From contig JABGWZ010000105.1 in assembly GCA_018675995.1 (NCBI GenBank), positions 1-64,000 on the forward strand: a stretch of 64,000 bases of DNA. Direction: 5' to 3'. The first letter of the stretch is position 1. Every line of letters starts with the position of its first letter. Both the position numbers and the translations under genes were made by a program. Shown piece by piece: positions 5,950-8,812 of this stretch. The DNA is from Opitutia bacterium. Lineage in GTDB: Bacteria > Verrucomicrobiota > Verrucomicrobiia > Opitutales > Seribacteraceae. The notes beneath the pieces were generated by a model. That model was not told the DNA's origin. It ran no database searches and saw only the letters and a program-made list of their open reading frames with translations.

Positions 5950-6876
5950 ATGGAGATACCAAAATGGAAAACTAAAAATTTACTTGGGATTGAAAGTTTA
6001 TCCAAATTTGAGATAAGAAAAATCCTTACTCTTGCGAAAAAGCTGAAGCATGAGCCTGCCAAAAATAAAAGCTATTTAGCCGGTAAAAGCATAGTTAATC
6101 TATTTATGGAGCCTAGTACGAGAACGAGAATAGCGTTTGAATTAGCCGCAAAGACATTACATGCAGATGTAATTTCAATTGCAGAAAAATCCAGTAGTTT
6201 AACTAAGGGAGAAACTTTAAGAGATACAGCTTTAAATATTCAAGCACTTGGAGCAGATGCTATTGTATTAAGACATTCTTCACCGGGTTCTCCACTTTTA
6301 TTGTCAAGAATTATTGATGTACCTATTATAAATGCTGGTGATGGTGCTCACGAGCATCCAAGTCAGGCACTATTGGATGTATACACATTAGAAGAAAAAA
6401 TAGGACCTTTGGATGGAAAAAAAATAACAATTTTGGGGGATATACTTTTTAGTAGAGTAGCTAGGTCAAACTTTTGGGCGCTTTCAAAAATGGGAGCAAA
6501 GGTAACATTGGCGGGACCCTCAACCTTAGTACCTAAAAGCTTTGAATCAATGGGCGCGATTGTGTCACACGATTTAAAAGAATCTTTAGCAGATGCTGAC
6601 GCTGTTATGTTACTTAGGATTCAACATGAGAGACAATCATCTAGCCACTTTCCATCACTTGAAGAATATACTAGGATATTTGGATTAAATAAATATCGAA
6701 GTAAATGGCTAAAAAAAGATGCAGTAATATTGCACCCTGGACCTATTAACAGAGGTGTGGAGATTGACTCTGAACTAGCTGATTCAGGAAATTCAGTTAT
6801 TTTAGATCAAGTTACAAATGGTGTTGCTGTGAGGATGGCGATATTATGCCTTTGTACACTATCATATAATAAGTAA
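5950..6876 (+). CDS. pyrB: Aspartate carbamoyltransferase catalytic subunit
   Basis: EPSTRTRIAFELA, HPSQALLDVYT, HPGPINRGVEI. Confidence 0.95.
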   Translation: MEIPKWKTKNLLGIESLSKFEIRKILTLAKKLKHEPAKNKSYLAGKSIVNLFMEPSTRTRIAFELAAKTLHADVISIAEKSSSLTKGETLRDTALNIQALGADAIVLRHSSPGSPLLLSRIIDVPIINAGDGAHEHPSQALLDVYTLEEKIGPLDGKKITILGDILFSRVARSNFWALSKMGAKVTLAGPSTLVPKSFESMGAIVSHDLKESLADADAVMLLRIQHERQSSSHFPSLEEYTRIFGLNKYRSKWLKKDAVILHPGPINRGVEIDSELADSGNSVILDQVTNGVAVRMAILCLCTLSYNK

Positions 6877-8136
6877 ATGAAAACAATTTGCTTAAAAGGA
6901 GGTCGCATAATTGACCCATCTACAGAAAAAGATGAAAAAGGCGATTTATATTTTTATGATGATAAAATAATTAGTCCAAAAGACGCTAAGAACATTGAAG
7001 TTATTGATGTCACTGGAAAAATAATCTTTCCAGGTTTGGTTGATTTAAGGTGCCACATAAACGATCTTAGTGGAGGAAACTGTGAAAATATCTTTAGCGT
7101 GACAAGAGCGGCAGCTGCAGGAGGTTATTCGACAATTGTTCTCATGCCTAATTTAAATCCGATTCCTGATAATCCGGCCACAATTCAGTTTATCAAAGAT
7201 CAAATAAAAAGAGATGCATGCATAAATGTAAAACTTACTGGTTGTTTGACAAAAGGTTCCAATGGAAAAGCACTTGCCCCACTCGGGTCACTAAAAAATG
7301 CAGGAGTTGTAGCGATAACCGACTCACCGTTAAGCCCGCAAGACAATCAAATATTTTGCAAAGCTGTTGAGTATGCATCTATGTTTGATTTGCCAGTAAT
7401 AGATCTACCACGAGATCTATCATTATCAGAAAATGGAAATGCACATGATGGTCCATCAGCATTAAAAATGGGTCTAGGTGGTTATCCGAGAATTGCAGAG
7501 GAATTATTTGTACAGCGGGCAATTTCAATAGCTAGGAGTTTGAATACAAGAGTTCACCTTTCTTCAATATCTTCATTTGCTTCAGTTGATTTGATAAAAG
7601 AAGCTAAAAATAGAAATGTAATGATTACTGCTGATGTATCGCCCCAACATCTTGCATTAACTGAAACCAAGATTCTAAATTATGATACAAATTTTAAAAC
7701 TACACCACCGCTTCGTGAAGAAGTTGATAGAAAATATTTAATAGATGGTCTAATGGATGGTACTATTGATTGTATATCAACAGCGCATGAACCTATAAAA
7801 GAGTACGAAAAAAATATTGAATATGACTTAGCACCTACAGGGGTAACAAGCCTTGAAACAGCCTTTAACATTAGCTTGCAGCAATTAAGTAAACACCAGA
7901 AGTTTACCTGGGTAAATTTGCTAAAGTTTATGTCTTTAAGACCGTCTGAAATCATTAATGTCGAAGGAGGTGAATTACGAGTTGGAAGCACAGCAAATAT
8001 TGTAATATTTGACCCTTTGAAAAAGTGGAAATATCATCCAAGTAAAAGTAAAAGTAGAGCTTTCAATACACCTTTTAATAACGAAGAATTTCATGGAAAA
8101 GTGTCACAAATATATCTTAATGGAAAAGCGATATAA
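6877..8136 (+). CDS. pyrC: Dihydroorotase-like protein, probable non-catalytic PyrC' homologue
   Basis: Amidohydrolase/DHOase fold signatures; starts immediately after the pyrB stop; key metal ligands substituted (see findings). Confidence 0.85.
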   Translation: MKTICLKGGRIIDPSTEKDEKGDLYFYDDKIISPKDAKNIEVIDVTGKIIFPGLVDLRCHINDLSGGNCENIFSVTRAAAAGGYSTIVLMPNLNPIPDNPATIQFIKDQIKRDACINVKLTGCLTKGSNGKALAPLGSLKNAGVVAITDSPLSPQDNQIFCKAVEYASMFDLPVIDLPRDLSLSENGNAHDGPSALKMGLGGYPRIAEELFVQRAISIARSLNTRVHLSSISSFASVDLIKEAKNRNVMITADVSPQHLALTETKILNYDTNFKTTPPLREEVDRKYLIDGLMDGTIDCISTAHEPIKEYEKNIEYDLAPTGVTSLETAFNISLQQLSKHQKFTWVNLLKFMSLRPSEIINVEGGELRVGSTANIVIFDPLKKWKYHPSKSKSRAFNTPFNNEEFHGKVSQIYLNGKAI

Positions 8137-8163: not shown

Positions 8164-8812
8164 ATGCAATATTTGATTAATATATTTTTAATAGCATTGG
8201 CTTTTTGTATGCTTAAAAAAAAAACAATTCAATTTAGTATCAATTAAAATTGATGATTGGTTTATATTATTAATACCACTGTACTTCTTTTGTGATTTTA
8301 TAAATTTTGCTCATAGTTTTTTATTAATTATAACATTATTTATTCTAGTAAGATTTTTAAACGAAAAAAAGTCGCTAAATCTTAAACTTGATGCTGTAAA
8401 ATTCAGTGTAAGCAAATTAATAATTAGCTGGCCATTAATTATTGTAACATCTTTATTCTCCATGTTTTTATTTAGTGACTTTAAGGAACAGGAAATCGTG
8501 ACTAAGCTTAAAACAAGCATGAATATTTCATTATTGCTAAGCAGTATAGTTATTGCACCCGTACTGGAAGAGATATACTTCAGAATAATTGTATATCGAA
8601 TTTTAAAGAAAAAAATTGGGGTTTTTATAGGAATTGTATTAAGTTCATTTATGTTTGGGATTATTCATTACAATTTATATTCGTTTGGAACACTTTTTTT
8701 AATAAGTATTATTTGTACTATTAATTATGAAAATACGGGTAGAATAATTCACTCTATTTTAATTCACTCCTTTTTTAATTTAATAATGATAATATTTACT
8801 TATATAAAATAA
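8164..8812 (+). CDS. CPBP family intramembrane metalloprotease, reading frame split by an A10 tract at 8215-8224
   Basis: LEEIYFR (EExxxR), FGIIHY and HSFFN motifs; ATG at 8164 in frame 1 continues sensibly into frame 2 after the A-run; ORF track shows only 8462..8812. Confidence 0.7.

Follow-up and report, generated by a model that had tools for sequence, protein, structure and literature searches.

The gene that follows pyrB in the window (the whole 64,000-nucleotide stretch of DNA analysed here) very probably encodes a catalytically inactive dihydroorotase (DHO) subunit, which is kept as a structural partner of PyrB in a class A2 (Pseudomonas-type) aspartate carbamoyltransferase (ATCase) and which arose after a second DHO had been gained. 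Class A1 ATCases consist of active PyrB and active DHO, and class A2 of PyrB and an inactive DHO (PMC7053772; PMC4581275). A pair of this kind is already known; the new and more interesting part is a recurrent pattern linked to replacement of the enzyme. It is likely that the change from class A1 to class A2 happened several times independently within the phylum, in every case in a lineage with one or other of two replacement DHOs, and that intermediates were left behind, such as genomes of family f10 in which both enzymes are intact and genome G090, in which D153 alone is changed (to N).

The gene adjoining pyrB

The product of pyrB scored 383 bits against NF002032 (cut-off 263) and 301 bits against TIGR00670 (cut-off 237), and its catalytic motifs STRT, KGET, HPSQ, LRIQHE and HPGP are intact. 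The product of the next gene, hereafter pDHO, is a full-length type I DHO homologue according to its score against TIGR00857 (324 bits, cut-off 279), and the comparison with the Aquifex DHO gave a phmmer E-value of about 1e-72 and 35% identity. It fell below every DHO equivalog cut-off among the matches listed. An earlier note on this DNA had placed the start of the gene directly after the pyrB stop, and indeed the ATG at 6877 abuts the TAA at 6874-6876 with a 0-base gap; the two are separate adjacent genes and not fused, as the note had worded it, and its span of 7030-7805 encloses the diagnostic motifs but not the whole gene (Table 1). Further downstream, at 8164-8812, a stretch of some ten A residues near 8211-8220 seems to break a CPBP-like membrane protease gene into two frames, the break being a sequence error, slippage or the mark of a pseudogene.

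Table 1. Positions in the window of the two genes and of the pDHO residues aligned with the Aquifex active site
Feature	Position	Strand	Basis
pyrB, aspartate carbamoyltransferase catalytic subunit, 308 aa	5950..6876	+	profile scores and motifs
Predicted inactive dihydroorotase (pDHO, PyrC'-like), 419 aa	6877..8136	+	profile, phmmer, AlphaFold2 model
Zn alpha-site ligand H61 (Aquifex) replaced by Arg58, codon AGG	7048..7050	+	alignment; ligand role PMC3880350
Zn alpha-site ligand H63 (Aquifex) kept as His60	7054..7056	+	alignment
Zn alpha-site ligand D153 (Aquifex) replaced by Ser150	7324..7326	+	alignment
Beta-site H180 (Aquifex) replaced by Leu177	7405..7407	+	alignment
Beta-site H232 (Aquifex) replaced by Ser230, codon TCA	7564..7566	+	alignment
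Catalytic-site D305 (Aquifex) replaced by Ala303, codon GCG	7783..7785	+	alignment

In the Aquifex DHO, zinc is bound by H61, H63 and D153 with D305 adjacent, and H180 and H232 form a vacant second site (PMC3880350). The motifs PGLVDLRCH (His to Arg58), TAHEPI (Asp to Ala303) and VHLSSIS (Ser230), from which the earlier note had predicted a loss of catalysis, are all present as it described, and the prediction is supported more strongly than was claimed, since five of the six positions that bind metal or take part in catalysis have changed and only H63 is retained. The losses beyond those already pointed out are D153 to S150, H180 to L177, H309 to I307 and R65 to N62. At the four residues that mark an active type I DHO (H61, H63, D153 and D305), the window has R, H, S and A. 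Because the Aquifex double alanine mutant of H180 and H232 still works (PMC3880350), the loss of these two alone is no proof of inactivity; the joint loss of H61, D153 and D305 argues strongly that the window pDHO would be inactive. Chance or sequencing error was ruled out by six further genomes from the window's family (f1), in which the five replaced positions are occupied by R, C, L/F, S and A/S.

The AlphaFold2 model of the window pDHO (pLDDT 95.3) superimposed on ATC-bound Aquifex DHO (3d6n, 4bjh) with a TM of 0.95-0.96 and an rmsd of 1.6-1.8, and fitted the free latent form (1xrf) more poorly (rmsd 3.5). Since the alignment that fed the model was dominated by active DHOs, this match shows a kept fold and not a complex.

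A second DHO in the same genome

The earlier note held that an active DHO must exist elsewhere, and a search of the assembly (2.6 Mb, 293 contigs, 92% complete) bore this out: one other DHO-type gene was found, on contig C79, encoding 444 aa with 25% identity to the window pDHO and scoring 663 bits against NF006688 (PRK09236 dihydroorotase, an NCBIfam equivalog with cut-off 535). The nuance is that its first motif, IDDQVHFREPG, has Gln for the first His (Q-x-H and not H-x-H), as in its nearest solved relative, Porphyromonas gingivalis 2gwn. The other motifs are GVKVFMGS with the lysine, HCED, HVLH and TDHAPH, and membership of this family suggests that the C79 DHO is active. No type II PyrC above cut-off was found in this assembly.

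The QxH DHO is present in 11/11 genomes of f1 at 63-100% identity, and its presence throughout the family in step with kinship ruled out bin contamination as the source of the C79 gene. A plasmid search returned ordinary distant DHOs only. Four genomes of the family (G097, G121, G074 and G060) have the QxH DHO and no PyrB at E <= 1e-40, either because their assemblies have gaps or because pyrB has truly been lost.

Degenerate copies and replacement DHOs across the phylum

When 132 genomes of the window's order (Opitutales, to which named relatives such as Opitutus sp. and Puniceicoccaceae also point) were searched and the residues at Aquifex positions 61/63/153/180/232/305 were read as a string, most families gave HHDHHD and five were degenerate (Table 2). 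D153 is the sole position lost in all five. Among genomes whose PyrB-partner DHO is degenerate, 31/31 had a replacement DHO, of the QxH type or the TIGR00856 type II; where the copy is intact or almost so, 4/56 had one, all four belonging to f10. Fisher's test of degenerate copy against replacement DHO gave p = 1e-19; the genomes are related and not independent, and therefore the count of lineages outweighs this value. Three of the f10 genomes carry type II PyrC together with an intact PyrB-partner DHO, so the presence of a second DHO need not lead to decay. The fourth, G090 (L045 / L193), also has type II PyrC, and its PyrB-partner DHO is changed only at D153 (D153N), possibly an early stage of decay.

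Table 2. Degenerate PyrB-partner DHOs and the replacement found with them
Group	Residues at positions 61/63/153/180/232/305	Replacement DHO
f1 (window's family)	R H C/S L/F S A/S	QxH type
f3	Q H G H N D	QxH type
f11	N S S P S N	QxH type
f19	N/C H/R S/T/A H H D	QxH type (part), type II PyrC (rest)
f20	H H G H H/Q A	type II PyrC
g76 of f29 (outside the order)	HHGRTD, HHGRLA, HKAATD	type II PyrC in 4/4 tested
f44 (outside the order)	HHCYNG, HHAFNG	type II PyrC in 4/4 tested

Reading of 66 further genomes outside Opitutales gave two more degenerate groups, genus g76 and family f44. The five other f29 genomes that were read have an intact DHO without type II PyrC, and in two f33 genomes with intact copies the TIGR00856 matches lie under the cut-off. 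Degenerate DHO homologues with differing patterns (e.g. HSGHTD and HSARCD) were also seen in four Planctomycetes (L225, L226, L228 and L263), three of them adjoining pyrB.

One genome is an unexplained exception to the replacement pattern. G329, met only in the wider search and belonging to family f13 of the window's own order, is a single-contig genome whose PyrB-partner DHO (L190) reads HHGHHG (D153G, D305G), the family being otherwise intact, and neither of the two replacement types searched (QxH and type II) was found in it. To judge by sequence, the other DHO-like protein of this genome (L363) appears to be an allantoinase; its gene lies beside an allantoate-amidohydrolase-like gene. Transfer of an f3-like operon into G329, at which the DHO tree hinted, was unsupported, as its PyrB and DHO are nearest to those of f13, f24 and f4.

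Number of losses

On the rpoB tree, which omits f11 (no rpoB), the dead families f1, f3, f19 and f20 form separate groups among intact families and at least four changes are needed; a single ancestral loss, with all dead copies in one clade, was rejected (AU p 1.3e-5). The PyrB tree, weakly resolved, needs four changes, and the DHO tree built with the catalytic columns removed needs at least five across the phylum. The DHO tree does not reject the joining of f1, f3, f11 and f20 (AU p 0.785), a grouping possibly caused by the fast evolution of dead copies, and the dead DHO may have spread horizontally. As f3 has kept D305 and lost H61 and f20 has kept H61 and lost D305, any dead ancestor shared by these two can scarcely have lost more than D153. 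A cautious count of losses across the phylum is about four or five, and there were perhaps eight.

As a separate observation on rpoB, the rpoB of a genome from the window's genus (G001:C50:50724-54920) carries about 350 extra bases, in frame, at a point that falls between residues 564 and 571 of the window RpoB.

Retention of the predicted inactive subunit

A DHO homologue, dead or intact, is kept in 88/88 Opitutales genomes that have PyrB. In genus g37 of f19 (L065, L072, L077 and L089), pyrB is on another contig and the dead DHO has a different gene neighbourhood; it is an intact conserved ORF with dN/dS of 0.05-0.07 in close pairs. More widely, related dead copies are under purifying selection, close pairs mostly giving dN/dS of 0.05-0.2 where dS is unsaturated. 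Most pairs within f1 are saturated for dS. In that family the evidence comes from the unbroken reading frame and from residue conservation: of the 114 columns that are conserved among intact copies, f1 retains 64%. The dN ratio of DHO to PyrB has family medians of 1.7-2.6 in dead and 1.2-2.0 in intact families.

These data are consistent with a course that would have begun with a class A1 ancestor, whose PyrB and DHO formed an active complex like that of Aquifex; the lineage would then have gained a second, stand-alone DHO, freeing the PyrB-bound DHO from catalysis. The active site of the latter would have decayed, and the dead subunit would have been retained since PyrB would need it to form its trimer or to remain stable. 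We infer the physical PyrB-pDHO complex, the dependence of PyrB on pDHO and this order of events; gene pairing, conservation and the Pseudomonas precedent suggest the role as ATCase partner.

Retention of the subunit might, with catalysis likewise lost, chiefly serve regulation or the dodecamer's closed reaction chamber instead of PyrB assembly, as the Aquifex complex has an internal chamber (PMC4581275) and the Pseudomonas ATCase-pDHO is nucleotide-sensitive, though its authors blame destabilisation of the complex (PMC7053772). We consider this unlikely: the inactive DHO of Pseudomonas is required for ATCase activity and no ATCase trimer forms without it (PMC7053772), and a chamber with no active DHO inside would presumably serve no second reaction. 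Far less probable is that the altered site (R58, C/S150, P178, S230) performs another hydrolase reaction. R58, P178 and S230 are each conserved in 7/7 genomes of f1, as such an enzyme would lead one to expect, but the metal ligand set is gone, the homologue is always paired with PyrB, and the replacements differ from one dead family to another in a way that does not suggest one new activity. That the gene is a functionless, decaying remnant in the pyrB operon is hardly credible despite the faster change of dead copies relative to PyrB, since dead copies read whole have a full-length open frame, dN/dS is well below 1, and the gene is kept even where unlinked from pyrB and never missing alongside it.

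With retention as a structural partner of PyrB as the preferred reading, annotation pipelines are likely to label the window gene dihydroorotase and so assign it the wrong reaction. In the phylum one can compare repeated losses of catalysis in which the partner role was retained, at several stages and with two replacement enzymes, so that the reason for keeping a dead DHO with ATCase, and the division of residues between catalysis and assembly, become testable. If true, the repeated passage from A1 to A2 is a replicated natural experiment on an enzyme becoming a pseudoenzyme subunit.

Comparison with known systems

No report of a PyrB-dead DHO pair in Verrucomicrobiota was found in the open literature, which is weak evidence of absence as subscription papers lay mostly outside the scope of the search. 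The window pair has the sequence features of class A2, namely pairing with pyrB, lost ligands and a separate predicted DHO (C79); hallmarks of the class are a dodecameric 6+6 complex and a PyrB that is inactive alone. The Pseudomonas PyrB-PyrC' (PyrX) system, reportedly described by Schurr et al. in 1995, likewise joins PyrB to a full-length DHO homologue without catalytic residues; its pyrB and pDHO genes lie side by side, and the genome has active DHOs besides. It differs in belonging to another phylum, and the replacement in the window genome is a PRK09236-type DHO; the Pseudomonas and window pDHOs are likened here by description and not residue by residue. The fungal CAD-like URA2 also retains an inactive DHO with ATCase, but there the pseudo-DHO is a fused domain of a eukaryotic multifunctional protein. 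The DHO-ATC reactor complex of Aquifex aeolicus (class A1; 3d6n, 4bjh; PMC3880350) has a homologous DHO subunit that works with ATCase, and differs in that its DHO is active, with zinc on H61, H63 and D153, whereas the window pDHO keeps only H63 of these.
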